From: Deltaproteobacteria bacterium
Lineage (GTDB): Bacteria > UBA10199 > JADFYH01
Direction of reading: 5' to 3'
DNA length: 64,000 nt
NCBI GenBank assembly: GCA_015233135.1
Contig: JADFYH010000001.1
Location: 91,930-155,929, forward strand
Below the pieces are notes generated by a model. The model had not been told where the DNA came from and ran no database searches. It saw nothing but the letters and a program-made list of their open reading frames with translations. The translations under genes were made by a program, and so were the position numbers. Shown one piece after another: positions 33,700 to 58,274 of the stretch. Numbering within the stretch: the first letter of the stretch is position 1; the number at the start of each line of letters is the position of its first letter.

Positions 33700-35094
33700 C
33701 TAACAAAATTTTGAGGGCATCAAATTGTAGATTTTCTCCAAACTGTAGTATTCAACATCTCCCTCTTTCTTTGTAATCTCCTTTTGGGTAAATAAAGCTT
33801 TTCGAATAGTCAGGCCTTTTGGATTTGGGAAACAGGCTATTTTGGCTTCCAGCTCTGCTTTGAGGGCAGTAGAAGATTTCACCTTTCCCCACTTGCATTC
33901 TCCCAAAATAATTTTTTCTTTTTCATACAATCCCACCACATCAATCTGGACATTCTTATCCCAATATTCCCCCACCTGAAAACTTCCCAAAGAGGATTTT
34001 GCAGAAAGACAGGTCAGTGCTTCACGACATAGATTCTCAAAGCAAACACCAAAATAACTTTCTAATCTGGGTTTGAGGACTGCCAGATAAGCCTGTTCTG
34101 GACTTACTTGAGCCAGGTAACTTTGTTGAGGATAGACAAAAAAGAACCAAAATCTCAGCAAGGGATCTTCCAAAATAAAACGCACTTCATTTTTAGTTGT
34201 TTTTTTATGACTGAGCGGAAATTTTCGTCGCACATAACCAATCTCAAGCAAGGTTTGGAGATAGTAGGAAAGCTTCTTATCTCCCACTCCACTTTGCTGA
34301 GCCAGCTGCGGAAGAGTTTGGGAACCCAAAGCCAAACTCATCAAAATCGAATAATATTTCTGCAATTCGCGAAGTTCTTCCCTCAATAAAAAGTCTGGCT
34401 CCCTAAACAAAGGAGCAAATTCTGAAAGGATGTGGTTGATAATATTTTTTTCGATGGAGCTGTGATCTTTAAAGAAAAGAAGATAATAGGGAACACCACC
34501 GCAAATGAAATAAGCCTTGGCCTTGTCGACCACTGACCATCGGGGATGAAAAAGGGCCGCTTCGTAATAAGGAAAAGGTTTAAGAAAAATCTGTCCGCTT
34601 CGCCTTCCAAAAAGTGGACTTTTTTCGCCCAAGACTTCTTTTTCCATGAACCCTAAATAAGACCCACAGAGAATCAAAAAAATATCCCGCCGCTTTTTCC
34701 ATTCCGTATCCAGAAGTTCCTGTAAGATTGAAGGAAGTTCTGGACTGGCAGCTACCAACCATTGAAACTCATCAAATACTATTATCAATTTTTTCCCTTC
34801 TTTTTTGTGATCAATCAAGAGTTGTAGGGCTTTTTTCCAATCTCGAGTCTGGGTTTCACGAAGTAAAGGCTGCTTGAAACAACGCGCGCCCTCATTCATA
34901 AACTCAGTAATCTGTAACTCGGCAAGAGCTTGCTTGCCCATGAGATAAACATGAGGCTTGTCCGAACAAAATTGCCGAATCAGCTCACTTTTACCCACAC
35001 GACGTCGTCCATAAATAGGAATGAATTCTGTTTTATTGGAAAGATAGGCTTCTTTCAGATAGGCGAGTTCTTTGTTTCTTCCAAAAAAATCCAT
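33700..35094 (-). CDS. AAA ATPase with C-terminal DUF234 nuclease-like domain
   Basis: A 464-residue protein of the ATP_bind_2 family. Walker A is IYGRRRVGKSELI (about 27-39), Walker B KLIIVFDEFQWL (about 101-112), and LILCGSYLGFMEKEVL is a sensor-1-like strand. A winged-helix segment (TLPQLAQQSGVGDKKLSYYL, about 261-280) precedes a C-terminal part with IDVVGLYEKEKIILGECKWG, a PD-(D/E)XK-type D ... E-x-K signature. Role unknown; such ATPases are common, multi-copy and mobile. The -10 of its likely promoter ends 6 bases before the ATG and its -35 lies in a large palindrome (see separate entry), so the transcript may be leaderless and self-regulated. Confidence 0.8.
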   Translation of the reverse strand: MDFFGRNKELAYLKEAYLSNKTEFIPIYGRRRVGKSELIRQFCSDKPHVYLMGKQALAELQITEFMNEGARCFKQPLLRETQTRDWKKALQLLIDHKKEGKKLIIVFDEFQWLVAASPELPSILQELLDTEWKKRRDIFLILCGSYLGFMEKEVLGEKSPLFGRRSGQIFLKPFPYYEAALFHPRWSVVDKAKAYFICGGVPYYLLFFKDHSSIEKNIINHILSEFAPLFREPDFLLREELRELQKYYSILMSLALGSQTLPQLAQQSGVGDKKLSYYLQTLLEIGYVRRKFPLSHKKTTKNEVRFILEDPLLRFWFFFVYPQQSYLAQVSPEQAYLAVLKPRLESYFGVCFENLCREALTCLSAKSSLGSFQVGEYWDKNVQIDVVGLYEKEKIILGECKWGKVKSSTALKAELEAKIACFPNPKGLTIRKALFTQKEITKKEGDVEYYSLEKIYNLMPSKFC

Positions 35095-35154
35095 GGCGCA
35101 ACGTTAATCGCTTCCTGTTGCCAAGTCAAGACTTGTCAAGTTACGACTTGGCAA
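35095..35154 (-). promoter_or_regulatory. Palindromic promoter of the DUF234 ATPase, likely leaderless
   Basis: A perfect 10-bp inverted repeat (TTGCCAAGTC at 35118-35127 and GACTTGGCAA at 35145-35154) flanks a 17-bp spacer holding a second palindrome ACTTG-t-CAAGT. On the minus strand TTGACT (35129-35124), 17 bases, TAACGT (35106-35101), then 6 bases to ATG. No ribosome site fits. The -35 overlaps one arm, so a bound protein would block transcription. Confidence 0.55.
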
Positions 35155-35197
35155 GTTCAGACCTCACTTCAAAACGCAGCCACGATTTCGTGGGTTC

Positions 35198-36688
35198 TTA
35201 CAACGACTCCAACAACTTCTGGTGTATCCCCCCAAAGCCGCCATTGCTCATCACCAGCAAGACATCGCCAGGTTTGGCTTCTTTCGAAACGATGTTCACT
35301 ATTTCGTCCACTTCTAAGCCGGATCGTGCGGGGACTTTTGCTTTTCGAATATCTTCCGCCACTTGTTCGACATCGAGCACTGCGCTGTCTTTCACTTTTT
35401 CGGGCATGAAAACTTTTGCGAGTAAAACCTCCTGCGCGTGAGACAAGGCCTTGGGGAAGTCTTGTTGAAAGATGGCGCGCTTACTGGTGTTGGAGCGGGG
35501 TTCGAAGATGGCCCAGACTTTTTGATGGGGATATTTTGACCGGATCGCATCCAGGGTTTCGGCAATGGCCGTGGGGTGATGGGCAAAGTCGTCGATGACG
35601 GTGATGTGGTTCACTACGCCACGGATTTCCTGGCGGCGTTTGACGCCTTGGAAGAGGGAGAGGGAGGATTGAATAGACCACCCCCCAACCCCCTCCTTAT
35701 TATTAAGGAGGGGGAGCGCATCTATTTTTAAATTCTTGGTAAAGAGAGGGGAAGACTGTAACTCCCCCTCCTGAATTAGGAGGGGGCTGGGGGGTGGTAA
35801 TCTCCTCAGCAATGCCAACACCCCCAACAGATTCTGCAAATTATGATTTCCCGCCATGGGGGATTCTAACACGCCCAGTTCTACTCCATTTTCCACAAGC
35901 GTGAAGGAAGCGCCCCTTGGACTTAAGCGAACCTTGGTGGCACGAATTTGATTTTTATCGCCCAGACCATAGGTGACGACCTTGCACTTCGCTCGAGACA
36001 AAAGCTTGAGATTGTTCTCATTATCCCCGCAAACATATAAGCATCCTTCGGGAGGAATGCGGTCCACCAGGCCTTCAAAGGATTTCATCACGTGTTCCAA
36101 ATCTTTATAAATATCGGCATGATCAAACTCAATGCCCGTGAGGATCACCTGATAAGGTCGGTAATGCCAAAACTTGGGGCCTTTATCAAAAAAGGCCGTG
36201 TCGTATTCATCGCCTTCAATCACAAAATAAGGGCCCTGCCCCAAGCGAAAAGAAGAATCGAAATTTTTGGGAATCGCACCGACGAGCAAACTGGGATCAA
36301 AACCCAGATCGTAAAGCATCCAGGCCAGTAAGCTGGTGGTGGTACTTTTCCCATGGGTGCCCGCAGCGATGAGAGATTTTTTATCAGCCAGAAAGAATTC
36401 ACCCAAGGCCTGAGGAAGAGAGAGATAGCGGATGTCGGATTGCAACAAGGCTTCGACTTCCGGATTCGTTTTTGAAACCGCGTTGCCGACAATGACGAGA
36501 TCGGGCTGAGGCTGTAAATTTTTCGCTGAAAAACCTTTTTGAATGGCAATACCCCACTTTTCAAGTTGGGTACTCATGGGAGGATAAACATTGTCGTCGC
36601 TGCCGCTGACCTGAAAACCCTTGGCCTTCAACATGCCGGCTAGGGTTCCCATGGCGGTGCCGCAGATGGCGATAAGATGGATGTGCAT
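35198..36688 (-). CDS. mpl: UDP-N-acetylmuramate:L-alanyl-gamma-D-glutamyl-meso-diaminopimelate ligase
   Basis: Murein-peptide recycling ligase, 496 residues against a usual 450-460. Seen: HIHLIAICGTAMGTLAGMLK at the N-terminus, KSLIAAGTHGKSTTTSLLAW (P-loop), FVIEGDEYDTAFFDKGPKFW, YRPYQVILTGIEFDHADIY and FQGVKRRQEIRG then DDFAHHPTAI and WAIFEPRSNTSKR. The excess length is one block at about residues 297-337 made by two REP-like elements: PPPSPLLIQEGELQS at one end and LPLLNNKEGVGG at the other. The block lies between the conserved HNLQNLLGVLALL helix and the FQGVKRRQE motif, so the fold can probably tolerate it. Confidence 0.93.
   Translation of the reverse strand: MHIHLIAICGTAMGTLAGMLKAKGFQVSGSDDNVYPPMSTQLEKWGIAIQKGFSAKNLQPQPDLVIVGNAVSKTNPEVEALLQSDIRYLSLPQALGEFFLADKKSLIAAGTHGKSTTTSLLAWMLYDLGFDPSLLVGAIPKNFDSSFRLGQGPYFVIEGDEYDTAFFDKGPKFWHYRPYQVILTGIEFDHADIYKDLEHVMKSFEGLVDRIPPEGCLYVCGDNENNLKLLSRAKCKVVTYGLGDKNQIRATKVRLSPRGASFTLVENGVELGVLESPMAGNHNLQNLLGVLALLRRLPPPSPLLIQEGELQSSPLFTKNLKIDALPLLNNKEGVGGWSIQSSLSLFQGVKRRQEIRGVVNHITVIDDFAHHPTAIAETLDAIRSKYPHQKVWAIFEPRSNTSKRAIFQQDFPKALSHAQEVLLAKVFMPEKVKDSAVLDVEQVAEDIRKAKVPARSGLEVDEIVNIVSKEAKPGDVLLVMSNGGFGGIHQKLLESL
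35678..35798. repeat. REP-like pair inside mpl (hairpins inward)
   Basis: Copy one (35678-35716): tail accacccccc then hairpin CCCCCTCCTT-attatt-AAGGAGGGGG. Copy two (35761-35798): hairpin CCCCCTCCT-gaatt-AGGAGGGGG then tail ctggggggtggt. They face each other head to head over 44 bases. The hairpin sequence is a second subtype (CTCCTT rather than CTCTCCC). Confidence 0.85.
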
Positions 36689-36695
36689 ATTTCTT

Positions 36696-36800
36696 TCTCC
36701 CTCCCCCTGAACGGGGGAGGGTCGGGGAGAGGGTGAAACTTTCAGTGCACTCAGGATTTCACCCTCTCCCTAACCCTCTCCCCTCAAGGGAGAGGGGACT
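36696..36800. repeat. REP-like pair upstream of mpl (tails inward)
   Basis: Copy one (36696-36736) hairpin then tail; copy two (36759-36800) tail then hairpin; tails face each other over about 22 bases. It fills the gap between mpl and the unknown gene upstream. Confidence 0.85.
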
Positions 36801-55075: not shown

Positions 55076-56203
55076 ATGGAAAGACCTTATAAAAAACTCA
55101 TTCAAAAAGACCTCGAAAAAAAAATGGTTTTTCTCACCGGCCCCCGGCAGGTCGGAAAAACCACTTTAGCAAAATCTTTCTTCAAACTCTGGCCTTCGAC
55201 TCAATATCTCAATTACGACAATGAAGACGAAAGAAAAATCATTGTTAAGAGAGAATGGGATCGAAAAGCTCCCCTCATTATCTTGGATGAAATCCATAAA
55301 CGACCCAAATGGAAATCGCATCTCAAGGGGATTTACGACAGTGAAGGAATTCCTCCCAGAATTTTAGTGACAGGCTCTGCACGCCTGGACGTTTATCGCC
55401 GGGGTGGCGACTCTTTGGCAGGGCGTTATTTTTTACACAGGCTGCATCCTTTTTCTATTGGCGAACTTCGGGGGCAAGACAGCAATCAAAATCTGTTGGA
55501 AAAACTCATGAAATTGGGGGGATTTCCCGAGCCTTTTTTAGAAGCCTCCGAAGTAGAAGCCGCACGTTGGAAAAAGCAACATTTAGAAAGGATTATTCGG
55601 GAAGACGTGCAAGATCTGGAACCCGTTCGCGATATTCAAAAATTATTGTTATTGGTAGATGTCTTAAAAGAAAGAGTAGGGTCTTCCATTTCAATAGGAA
55701 ATATTGCCCGTGATTTGGAAATCTCTCCCCACACCCTCAAACACTGGATTCAAACCCTAGAAAATATGTATGTGATTTTTTTGCTTCCCGCCTATCATCA
55801 AAATCTAGCGCGCGCGATTATTAAAGAACCGAAGATTTTTTTCTATGACACCGGAGCGGTTGTAAATGAAGTAGGTGCTCGCTTTGAAAATTTGGTAGCA
55901 GGACATCTAAAAAAATGGGTGGATTATTTGGAAGATGTAGAAGGCAAAAGTTTTAAACTTTATTTTTTGAGGGATAAAGAAAAACGCGAAGTGGATTTTG
56001 TGATTGGTTCCGGAAAACAAATCGAATATCTGATTGAGGCAAAATATGCGGATGATCAACTGAGTGCTTCATTAAAGTACTATCAAAATAAATTAAAACC
56101 CAAACAAACGCTTCAATTGGTAGGACAGATTCGAAGAAATAAAACAGTAGACGGGATATCGATTTACTCAGCAGCGGATTGGTTGGCAGAATTAAAGGTA
56201 TAA
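55076..56203 (+). CDS. AAA ATPase with DUF4143 domain (ATPase A)
   Basis: A 375-residue AAA_14-family ATPase. Walker A is TGPRQVGKTTLAK (about 21-33), Walker B LIILDEIHKRPKWK (about 67-80), and VTGSARLDVYRRGGDSLAGR (about 101-120) is the sensor with a conserved arginine. The winged-helix-like segment GNIARDLEISPHTLKHWIQT lies at about 206-225. The C-terminal DUF4143 part has REVDFVIG and YLIEAKYAD (about 305-330), a PD-(D/E)XK-type signature. Function of the family is unknown. It is transcribed from a palindrome that may be its own operator (inference) and is paralogous to ATPase B, with a TA module between them. Confidence 0.85.
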   Translation: MERPYKKLIQKDLEKKMVFLTGPRQVGKTTLAKSFFKLWPSTQYLNYDNEDERKIIVKREWDRKAPLIILDEIHKRPKWKSHLKGIYDSEGIPPRILVTGSARLDVYRRGGDSLAGRYFLHRLHPFSIGELRGQDSNQNLLEKLMKLGGFPEPFLEASEVEAARWKKQHLERIIREDVQDLEPVRDIQKLLLLVDVLKERVGSSISIGNIARDLEISPHTLKHWIQTLENMYVIFLLPAYHQNLARAIIKEPKIFFYDTGAVVNEVGARFENLVAGHLKKWVDYLEDVEGKSFKLYFLRDKEKREVDFVIGSGKQIEYLIEAKYADDQLSASLKYYQNKLKPKQTLQLVGQIRRNKTVDGISIYSAADWLAELKV

Positions 56204-56233
56204 AATCTCAATGGTACGTAGAAAACAAAGGCT

Positions 56234-56290
56234 GACCAATTTCCACCCACCTGGAAAATAGTCTTGACCATTTTCCAGTTGCACCTAAAA
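56234..56290. repeat. 57-bp direct repeat, first copy (ghost promoter)
   Basis: Identical at 56 of 57 positions to 56984-57040. It contains the inverted-repeat promoter of ATPase B (CCTGGAAAAT, TTGACC, ATTTTCCAG), but is followed by AAAACGCCTGG rather than AAAATGGTC, so the downstream half-site is gone. No ATPase follows; the antitoxin of a PIN module starts 53 bases on. Confidence 0.9.
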
Positions 56291-56343: not shown

Positions 56344-56532
56344 ATGCGCTATAATCAAAAAAAAATAAGCCCAGAGGAATTTATCCTTTCTGCCTTAGAT
56401 GATGAGGAAAGACTAAAGTCTGCCTTCAAAGTTGCCCAAGAAACATTCAAGAAAACTAAACTAAGCATTCAAGATATTGAGAAAGCTGTTAAAAAAGTTC
56501 GTGGAAGTTCGCATGCAAAAAGTAGTCGTTGA
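56344..56532 (+). CDS. Antitoxin-like protein of the PIN module between the ATPases
   Basis: A 62-residue protein: MRYNQKKISPEEFILSALDD, EERLKSAFKVAQETFKKTKL, then SIQDIEKAVKKVRG. It is mostly helical, with a basic tail, and overlaps a PIN toxin gene, the usual layout of small antitoxins. The ATG at 56344 is chosen over a TTG at 56335. I recognise no named family. Its promoter would lie in or just after the 57-bp repeat. Confidence 0.6.
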   Translation: MRYNQKKISPEEFILSALDDEERLKSAFKVAQETFKKTKLSIQDIEKAVKKVRGSSHAKSSR

Positions 56533-56962
56533 TACTTGTGTTTTAATTTCTGGATTTGCCTACGGTGGAATCCCTGCCAAAGCAGTTGAGTTGGCTTTCT
56601 CCGACTTTCAAATTATTGTTTCCCCGAAACTTTTGAACGAATATAAAAAAGTTCCTCTGGAGTTGTACAAGAAAAACAAAATAAATTTTGAACAGCTTTC
56701 TAGCTTGGTCCGTGGCATAGCCAGTTTTGTCAAAAACTCAATTTTCGTTATCCCGAAAAAAACTCTTAAAATTTGTCGTGATCCTGCCGATGATATGCTT
56801 CTGGAATGCTGCCTGGAAGTGAGAGCACATTTTTTAGTAAGCAGTGATAAAGATTTACTTTCTATTAGTGGCGAAAAACTTGAAAACAAACTTCATCATT
56901 TACAAATTTTGAAGCCTGGAGATTTTTTAAGAAAATTTTCAAAAACAACCAAGCTTCACTGA
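56513..56962 (+). CDS. PIN-domain toxin (COG1569-type)
   Basis: A 149-residue putative toxin: MQKVVVDTCVLISGFAYGGI is the first PIN strand with its acid, IVSPKLLNEYKKVP the second region with the conserved E, ICRDPADDMLLECCLEVRAH carries the D-P-x-D-D motif, and FLVSSDKDLLSI the final one. This matches the COG1569 group of PIN proteins, longer than VapC. The ATG at 56513 overlaps the antitoxin by 20 nt and has a GTGGAAG-like site. The module is bounded on both sides by a 57-bp direct repeat. Confidence 0.75.
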   Translation: MQKVVVDTCVLISGFAYGGIPAKAVELAFSDFQIIVSPKLLNEYKKVPLELYKKNKINFEQLSSLVRGIASFVKNSIFVIPKKTLKICRDPADDMLLECCLEVRAHFLVSSDKDLLSISGEKLENKLHHLQILKPGDFLRKFSKTTKLH

Positions 56963-56983
56963 ACAAATAAACAATCCGAACCC

Positions 56984-57047
56984 GACCAATTTCCACCCAC
57001 CTGGAAAATAGTCTTGACCATTTTCCAGGTGCACCTAAAATGGTCGA
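56984..57047 (+). promoter_or_regulatory. Palindromic promoter of ATPase B, likely leaderless; second copy of the 57-bp repeat
   Basis: A perfect 12-bp inverted repeat (CACCTGGAAAAT at 56998-57009, ATTTTCCAGGTG at 57020-57031) with a 10-base spacer. TTGACC (57014-57019), 16 bases, TAAAAT (57036-57041), then 6 bases to the ATG at 57048. Direct repeats AAAATAGTC (57005-57013) and AAAATGGTC (57037-57045) are 32 bases apart, as at ATPase A. Confidence 0.65.
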
Positions 57048-58274
57048 ATGAATAAAAATCGTTTTGTGTGCAATTGGGCTCTCTCTCCCGGACATCTTAA
57101 TGGACGCATGTCTTTTATTGCAGGACCACGCCAGGCGGGAAAAACAACTCTGATTGAAAATTTCCTCAGGCAGAAAAGCATCCAAGGCCATTACTACAAT
57201 TGGGATTCTCCTCTTGTCAAAAAACGCTATGCCAAAGACCCCAGCTTTTTTACAGAAGATCTCTCTTTGAAAGAACGGGAATGGGTAGCCTTGGATGAAA
57301 TTCACAAATATCCCAAATGGAAAAATATTTTAAAGGGTTATTACGATGAATGGAAAAACCAAGTTCAATTTGTCATCACTGGATCGGCGCGTTTAGATCT
57401 TTTCCGAAAGTCGGGTGACAGCCTGGTGGGAAGATATTTTTTATTTCGACTCTTTCCTTTGGGCCCTCGCGAGGTTTTGGGACAAACCCTAACCATTGAA
57501 AACGAATGGCAACCTTTGGAAAAAGATTTACTCCCTCGTTTCGAAAATCATGGGGGTATTTACGAAGCAGTACAGCAGCTCCTGGCTTGTTCCGGATTTC
57601 CTGAACCTTTTTTCAAGGGCCAATCCAAATTCTACAATTTGTGGAAAGAGAATCATCTCTCAATGATTCTTCAAGAAGACCTGAGAGACTTGAGTAAAAT
57701 TACTTCCATTCAAAAAGTGGAACAGCTTCTTTATTTGTTAGAAGAAAGGGTGAGTTCACCTCTGAGTTTAAACTCCATCCGGCAATTACTCGAATGCGCT
57801 CATGATACGCTGAACCACTGGTTGCTTGCCTTGGAAAAAGTATACCTTACTTTCTCCATTCCCCCTTGGTCCGAGCGACTGAGCCGCAGTATTTTGAAAG
57901 AAAAAAAAGTGTATTTTTGGGATTGGAGCTTTAATGAAAACGTGGGTTCTAAATTTGAAAATTTTATTGCGGTTTCTCTCATGCGAACGATATCTGCGTG
58001 GAATGAACAGGGTTTAGGACCCTACTTTCTCTACTATGTTCGAACCAAAGATGGCCATGAGGTTGACTTCGCGATTGCCGACCGAAAAAAAATTCATTTA
58101 TTAATTGAAGCAAAAAATTCGGATACTGCCCTCGATACCAACCTGCTTTATCTTCAAGAAAAATTAAAAGTGGAGACTGCTATCCAGGTAGTCAACCAAA
58201 AGGAAGTTTTTCAACATAAGAAACCTGGTGTTTTTATAATAGGAGTAGATCGCTTGATGGGATTGTTGCTTTAG
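57048..58274 (+). CDS. AAA ATPase with DUF4143 domain (ATPase B)
   Basis: A 408-residue paralogue of ATPase A: AGPRQAGKTTLIENF (Walker A, about 25-39), WVALDEIHKYPKWKNILKGY (Walker B region), VITGSARLDLFRKSGDSLVG, a wHTH-like segment SLNSIRQLLECAHDTLNHWL and a C-terminal GHEVDFAIADRKKIHLLIEA K nuclease-like motif. It has about 30 residues more than A between the sensor and the wHTH. Function unknown; with A and the DUF234 ATPase it is one of three self-contained AAA ATPases in the window whose promoters share layout. Confidence 0.85.
   Translation: MNKNRFVCNWALSPGHLNGRMSFIAGPRQAGKTTLIENFLRQKSIQGHYYNWDSPLVKKRYAKDPSFFTEDLSLKEREWVALDEIHKYPKWKNILKGYYDEWKNQVQFVITGSARLDLFRKSGDSLVGRYFLFRLFPLGPREVLGQTLTIENEWQPLEKDLLPRFENHGGIYEAVQQLLACSGFPEPFFKGQSKFYNLWKENHLSMILQEDLRDLSKITSIQKVEQLLYLLEERVSSPLSLNSIRQLLECAHDTLNHWLLALEKVYLTFSIPPWSERLSRSILKEKKVYFWDWSFNENVGSKFENFIAVSLMRTISAWNEQGLGPYFLYYVRTKDGHEVDFAIADRKKIHLLIEAKNSDTALDTNLLYLQEKLKVETAIQVVNQKEVFQHKKPGVFIIGVDRLMGLLL

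Follow-up and report, generated by a model that had tools for sequence, protein, structure and literature searches.

Two abundant groups of phage-defence candidates, PDC-S01 and PDC-S27, are built as single proteins in which an ATPase is fused to a PD-(D/E)XK domain; in a 2026 survey PDC-S01 ranked fourth in frequency among the defence systems of prokaryotes, and both are single-gene candidates in a class whose members mostly await validation (PMC12988326). The genes considered here resemble them in that fusion and in their PADLOC profile matches, a DUF234 ATPase matching PDC-S27 (E 2.9e-57) and two further ATPases, A and B, matching PDC-S01; the private DNA arrays described below are an addition to the published account, which mentions no promoter, autoregulation or palindrome (PMC12988326). 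No mechanism for PDC-S01 or PDC-S27 was found in the literature searched, and the search, which covered the full text of open-licence papers only, so that absence is not proof, returned no paper on elements upstream of DUF234/DUF4143 or PDC-S27/PDC-S01 genes.

Other described systems share part of this organization. Archaeal Orc1/Cdc6 proteins and their ORB elements are similar in the order of domains (AAA+, then winged helix), in fold, and in the placement of inverted repeats beside the gene of the binder, with paralogs having their own element variants (PMC3936714). The DUF234 ATPase differs from the Orc1/Cdc6 domain make-up by an additional PD-(D/E)XK-like domain, its array lies over the promoter of the gene, and the family is mainly bacterial, present in many copies and without sign of an origin. 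Iteron-type plasmid Rep proteins autorepress through direct repeats of about 20 bp that adjoin their gene and overlap its promoter, whereas the DUF234 ATPase belongs to a different protein family and the locus described here contains no replicon. RepA (ParA-type) of repABC plasmids, together with ADP, represses only its own operon via imperfect palindromes (PMC4492784), and is thus a copy-specific, autorepressing ATPase on its own operator, to which binding by the DUF234 ATPase would be an analogy; RepA, however, is an ATPase of a different class, encoded in a partition operon where there is no 15-bp array. In the IniR/STAND comparison, the ATPase domain of the transcription regulator IniR was modelled on SSO1545, a relative of the DUF234 family (PMC5760070); IniR acts on another operon and has a separate C-terminal DNA-binding domain and a MalT-like sensor, neither of which the DUF234 protein possesses.

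Here we describe an array of alternating half-sites at the start of a DUF234 ATPase gene in a 64,000-nucleotide stretch of DNA (the window) from a Deltaproteobacteria bacterium, and report its distribution and the variation of its sequence among homologs. Operators of self-regulated ATPases are already known; what is new is a family-wide array, fixed in geometry and diversified in letters, that is tied to candidate defence ATPases.

A three-unit array upstream of the ATPase gene

The 464-residue DUF234 AAA+ ATPase (Pfam PF01637 and PF03008) is encoded on the minus strand at 33700-35094, with its ATG at 35094, and is preceded on the same strand by a Mur ligase gene of the mpl/murC type (35198-36688; Pfam) that lies outside the system. 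The minus-strand sequence leading to the start reads ...TGAACTTGCCAAGTCGTAACTTGACAAGTCTTGACTTGGCAACAGGAAGCGATTAACGTTGCGCC-ATG. A first-pass annotation had noted here a perfect 10-bp inverted repeat over a -35 element, with a second palindrome nested within it, and this is confirmed in the sequence: the arms TTGCCAAGTC and GACTTGGCAA (35154-35145 and 35127-35118) enclose ACTTGACAAGT, the repeat has its centre 7 bases before the -35, and as a whole it has 18-nt arms that are 83% complementary. The element is better described as a set of three direct repeats, 15 bp in period, than as a single palindrome. Each unit follows the plan GACTTG-N-CAAGTC-NN, that is, a 6-bp half-site, 1 bp, the inverted half-site and 2 bp. 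The window copy (minus strand, 35115-35157) ends 20 bases from the ATPase start and reads, in register, AACTTG.C.CAAGTC.GT / AACTTG.A.CAAGTC.TT / GACTTG.G.CAACAG.GA, the three units lying at 35145-35157, 35130-35142 (the nested palindrome) and 35115-35127 (degenerate in its right half); the dyads contained in this array include both the outer inverted repeat and the nested one. The inverted repeat scores z = 4.8 against dinucleotide shuffles, and a search for the motif at up to three mismatches gives one occurrence in the window and none in 100 shuffles. The 2.6-Mb source genome contains a single array; elsewhere in it a relaxed form of the pattern occurs only at background level and single units at control level, with no other target or regulon seen. 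The shuffle score and the conservation among orthologs given below exclude a chance origin of the palindrome.

The reported promoter, TTGACT-17-TAACGT placed 6 bases before the ATG, is borne out as a reading of the sequence (35129-35124 and 35106-35101); as a promoter it is a possible one, its candidate -35, within the array, matching TTGACA at 5/6 positions, its candidate -10 being weak at 3/6, and a promoter scan calling nothing at this site. Good array-overlapping promoters are seen in orthologs rather than in the window copy: TTGACA-17-TATAAT-6-ATG at locus L205 and TTGACA-17-TATAAA-6-ATG at L196, and also TTGACA-17-TATCTT-6-ATG at L204, all with the -35 inside the array. Most myxobacterial members are without a recognisable sigma-70 promoter. 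With the -35 inside the array in orthologs that have such promoters, RNA polymerase must face competition from a protein that occupies the array.

The element could fold into a hairpin, and the genes on either side of it are on one strand, so that a role as RNA, whether as a hairpin at the 5' end, an attenuator or the terminator of the Mur ligase gene, had to be weighed; we consider it very improbable. The Mur ligase gene has its own terminator-like hairpin apart from the array (35193-35180), for which reason the terminator reading was rejected, and the array has no T-run. At L205, L196 and L204 the promoter is leaderless and has the array at its -35, which places the array upstream of any RNA, and tandem palindromes repeated in a fixed 15-bp phase suit protein half-sites better.

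The mpl-type gene is itself associated with two GC-rich inverted-repeat elements (arms of 25-49 nt), one inside the ORF at the boundary between Mur_ligase_M and Mur_ligase_C (35670-35808) and one just beyond the start of the gene (36699-36796); they look like dispersed REP-type repeats, one of them inserted in frame.

Distribution of the array among genomes

We interrogated 84,980 genomes (257 Gb) with the pattern CAAGT-n(3-5)-ACTTGnCAAGT-n(3-5)-ACTTG, which holds no gene information, and retrieved 26 loci where, by our own estimate, about two are expected by chance. Twenty of these lie directly upstream of an ortholog of the window ATPase, the array centre being 12-83 bases from the first start-type codon, and these ATPase-linked arrays span at least six phyla; hosts of the array include Myxococcota, Thermodesulfobacteriota, Verrucomicrobiota, Actinomycetota, Planctomycetota and Elusimicrobia. 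Although spacers of three to five were permitted, 25 of the 26 loci keep 4/4. The six loci without an adjacent ATPase comprise one array close to a contig end (21 bases away; L191), one within a coding repeat (L203), one with other spacing (L187) and three with no ATPase nearby (L180, L181, L182).

Alignment of the window with its ortholog in genome G023 (54-56% protein identity) showed upstream conservation only from -60 to -23, which is the array, the rest of the 400-bp upstream region being at chance level. The array-bearing ATPases form one clade that crosses phyla (support 100/100), and both close orthologs found independently of the motif, in the window genome and in G023, have the array, a recall of only 2 of 2 because close orthologs are present in few of the genomes examined. 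Its central dinucleotide varies freely among the DUF234 orthologs. Together these comparisons support the view that the array belongs to the ATPase gene and is under selection.

Passage of the gene between phyla as a unit might suggest a mobile element, with the array as its end or its target. We regard this as extremely improbable: the genome holds no second copy and no matching end, on which grounds a transposon end was rejected, and a sister clade has different letters on the same geometry. Regulation through the array by some other DNA-binding protein of the host is also to be considered, since binding by the ATPase is something we infer, but it is decidedly unlikely. The array stays with the ATPase in unrelated hosts, and no second gene accompanies the pair: apart from the ATPase, no neighbour recurs in more than two of 21 array loci, the second cluster of neighbours in this analysis being made up of frames antisense to the ATPase, from GC-rich genomes. 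Moreover, elements of paralogs differ within a genome, so that dozens of dedicated regulators would be needed.

A search of IMG/VR for the ATPase subfamily of the window returned no relatives. Two IMG/VR contigs contain the same 15-bp array (CAAGTCCAAACTTGTCAAGTCCAAACTTG; L206:10279-10307 and L207:3889-3917), in both cases 54 bases ahead of an ORF of 599 aa that does not encode an ATPase of the DUF234 family.

A common geometry with different half-sites

DUF234 homologs at 30-37% identity have different half-sites on the same 15-bp plan. Examples are ATACTC-CA-GAGTAT-A-ATACTC-TC-GAGTAT on the Rhodothermus marinus plasmid pRMAR01, GTAACC-TT-GATTAC-C-GTAATC-AG-GATTAC in Mesorhizobium and ATAATT-TC-AATTAT-C-ATAATT-AT-AATTAT on a plasmid of Methanocaldococcus jannaschii; period-15 arrays also occur in Halorussus, Cetobacterium and Fusobacterium, and the half-sites of the sister clade include ATACTC, GTAATC, ATAATT, ATTATC and ATAGTC. 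When 81 spacer combinations were scanned over the upstream regions of 50 DUF234 genes, none of them from the subfamily of the window ATPase, ranks 1 to 4 went to the four combinations of period 15. At that period z exceeded 4.5 in 10/50 DUF234 regions, compared with 2/81 DUF4143 regions and none of 200 control genes. The last ten plasmid loci, fetched after the period-15 idea had been formed, served as a prospective test, in which eight exceeded z = 3.5 as against 3/200 controls (p = 9e-11).

Upstream regions are AT-rich and short palindromes common in them, which is what a chance or compositional origin would have in its favour; this explanation, refuted by the dinucleotide shuffles, the control genes, the blind scan and the prospective test, has a negligible probability.

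Another DUF234 clade (20 tree rows) has other arrangements. The common design within the DUF234 family is the 15-bp array of alternating half-sites, whose geometry is older than its letters. In haloarchaeal plasmid homologs of three genera (L220, L221, L224), AGTCATTATCGYAGTAATCATTA is common to all immediately before the ATG; the remaining upstream region differs, and TCATTATC recurs at 15 bp.

Upstream palindromes in the wider DUF234/DUF4143 family

The source genome (G000) has 27 DUF4143 matches and at least four DUF234-type genes; DUF4143 numbers are similar (11-38) in eight of nine other genomes examined. Inverted repeats were sought between -90 and +15 of genes from G000 and other genomes (p<=0.01 against dinucleotide shuffles), the start codon being taken as the first ATG unless annotated and most genomes being metagenome-assembled. 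They were significant in 54 of 117 family genes (DUF4143, 39/81; DUF234, 15/36) and in 41 of 433 controls (Mann-Whitney p = 3e-19), with clusters of DUF4143 centres at -31 to -36 and at -15. In about half of the wider family no palindrome reaches significance at the start that was assigned, and some of these starts are surely wrong. Orthologs have upstream elements in common across families (L004/L080, L021/L176), and those of paralogs differ: an upstream stretch is shared by 34% of pairs at 50-70% protein identity and by about 1% of pairs below 25%. The suggestion that the design is selected is supported by this pattern in roughly half of the DUF234/DUF4143 paralogs, together with conservation of the array and its co-travel with orthologs.

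Predicted properties of the ATPase

The window ATPase is predicted to consist of an AAA+ domain (residues 1-230), a winged helix (about 240-294, with its recognition helix at 272-285) and a PD-(D/E)XK-like domain, and its Pfam scores of 76.2 (PF01637) and 73.0 (PF03008) bits stand against curated cut-offs of 33.2 and 22.5. An AlphaFold2 model built with 41 sequences has a pLDDT of 94.6 (above 90 in the winged helix, 240-294) and a pTM of 0.91. Among 41 homologs the Walker A and B motifs are intact, with GRRRxGK and DEFQW invariant or nearly so, as are D385 and E399-C-K401 of PD-(D/E)XK type. NCBIfam and PHROGs give the protein no name, and no Rep initiator family was matched in Pfam, NCBIfam or PHROGs. 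The best Foldseek match is the Walker-type ATPase 2qen of Pyrococcus, followed by ORC/Cdc6 proteins, including origin-bound 2qby; for 1w5t, 2qby and 1fnn, E is about 1e-8 at TM-scores of only 0.37-0.50.

These matches, one of them to a structure on origin DNA, raise the alternative of a replication-type element, in which the ATPase would be an ORC/Cdc6-like initiator and the array an origin or titration box, comparable to iterons with rep or ORB with orc1/cdc6. The repeats do adjoin an initiator-like gene, many homologs are plasmid-borne, and Haloarcula origins pair specifically with the adjacent cdc6 gene (PMC3936714). We nevertheless judge this reading unlikely. There are many paralogs in one 2.6-Mb genome, at loci without replicon genes; the array reaches the ATG and in orthologs overlaps promoter elements; Reps of iteron plasmids belong to a different family; and the protein has a nuclease-like domain and no recurring replicon context.

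With its winged helix, the ATPase could bind a site of the kind that the array represents. The recognition helix reads RxLHYYL in the clade with CAAGTC half-sites, and LSKYL, LTPYI and others where half-sites differ, a change that fits the ATPase as putative binder and is not independent proof of it. Operator similarity follows overall protein identity, and the winged helix tracks the operator no more than other domains do, no domain-specific signal being found (Spearman 0.017 for the winged helix, 0.10 for the AAA domain); co-variation therefore does not pin down the binder.

A model of private autorepression

The one constant protein companion of the array contains a winged helix, which points to autorepression by the ATPase, and it is probable, in our assessment, that each ATPase binds a private array over its own promoter and represses itself. 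We infer the ATPase as binder, repression as the effect and nucleotide state as what sets affinity. In such a model the 43-bp element would be a private operator of alternating 6-bp half-sites, with spacers of 1 and 2 bp, that covers the -35 and the spacer of a promoter whose transcript begins at the ATG or close to it. When bound there, probably in oligomeric form and with each half-site taken by one winged helix, the ATPase would block its own transcription, and nucleotide probably modulates the binding. Recognition helix and half-site would have changed together in each lineage while the geometry was kept, which could explain how many copies coexist in a genome without cross-regulation.

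A more speculative and rather unlikely reading takes the arrays as self-addresses of ORC-like ATPase-nucleases, each of which would assemble on its own array and, by the same recognition, silence, exclude or cut incoming DNA bearing the same address. If that were true, diversification of the operators would be an incompatibility or defence code, beyond tidy autoregulation. As for the favoured model of autorepression, a private DNA target for each copy offers a direct binding assay for an uncharacterised family, and matched pairs of protein and site, fixed in geometry and changing in letters, would be useful for work on the winged-helix recognition code and on orthogonal repressors.

ATPases A and B of the window

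ATPases A (55076-56203) and B (57048-58274) both consist of AAA_14 and DUF4143. They are not unrelated to the DUF234 ATPase, as the DUF234 and DUF4143 profiles match each other's members. The proposal that one design serves all three holds insofar as upstream palindromes extend to about half of the DUF234/DUF4143 paralogs, and fails for the 15-bp alternating half-site array, which is absent from A and B. A shared position (-37, -37 and -38) and the AGTCTTGAC core had seemed to link the three, but neither is conserved in DUF234 orthologs; the close resemblance of the three is therefore partly coincidence, and homology of the core between the DUF234 ATPase and A/B was rejected.

The 81-combination spacer scan yielded nothing as clear as period 15 for a spacing common to DUF4143 operators. 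The DUF4143 operator CTCCAAAT-n-ATTTGGAG was matched five times in 385 genomes, twice at a DUF4143 start codon (G000 and G041), the other three matches being apparently due to chance. In one DUF4143 subgroup (L004, L005, L080, L073, L082, L084, L092, L095, L127) the palindrome is centred at -15 and ends at the start codon, often with TTGAC just upstream; its arms differ in each member, the letters being variable and the geometry constant. The putative operator of ATPase B occurs in the window in two nearly identical copies, one before B (56983-57040) and one (56233-56290) before a two-gene module that encodes a 62-aa protein (56344-56532) and a PIN_3 protein (56513-56959), likely a toxin-antitoxin pair; because a nearly identical operator precedes both, B may co-regulate this module.
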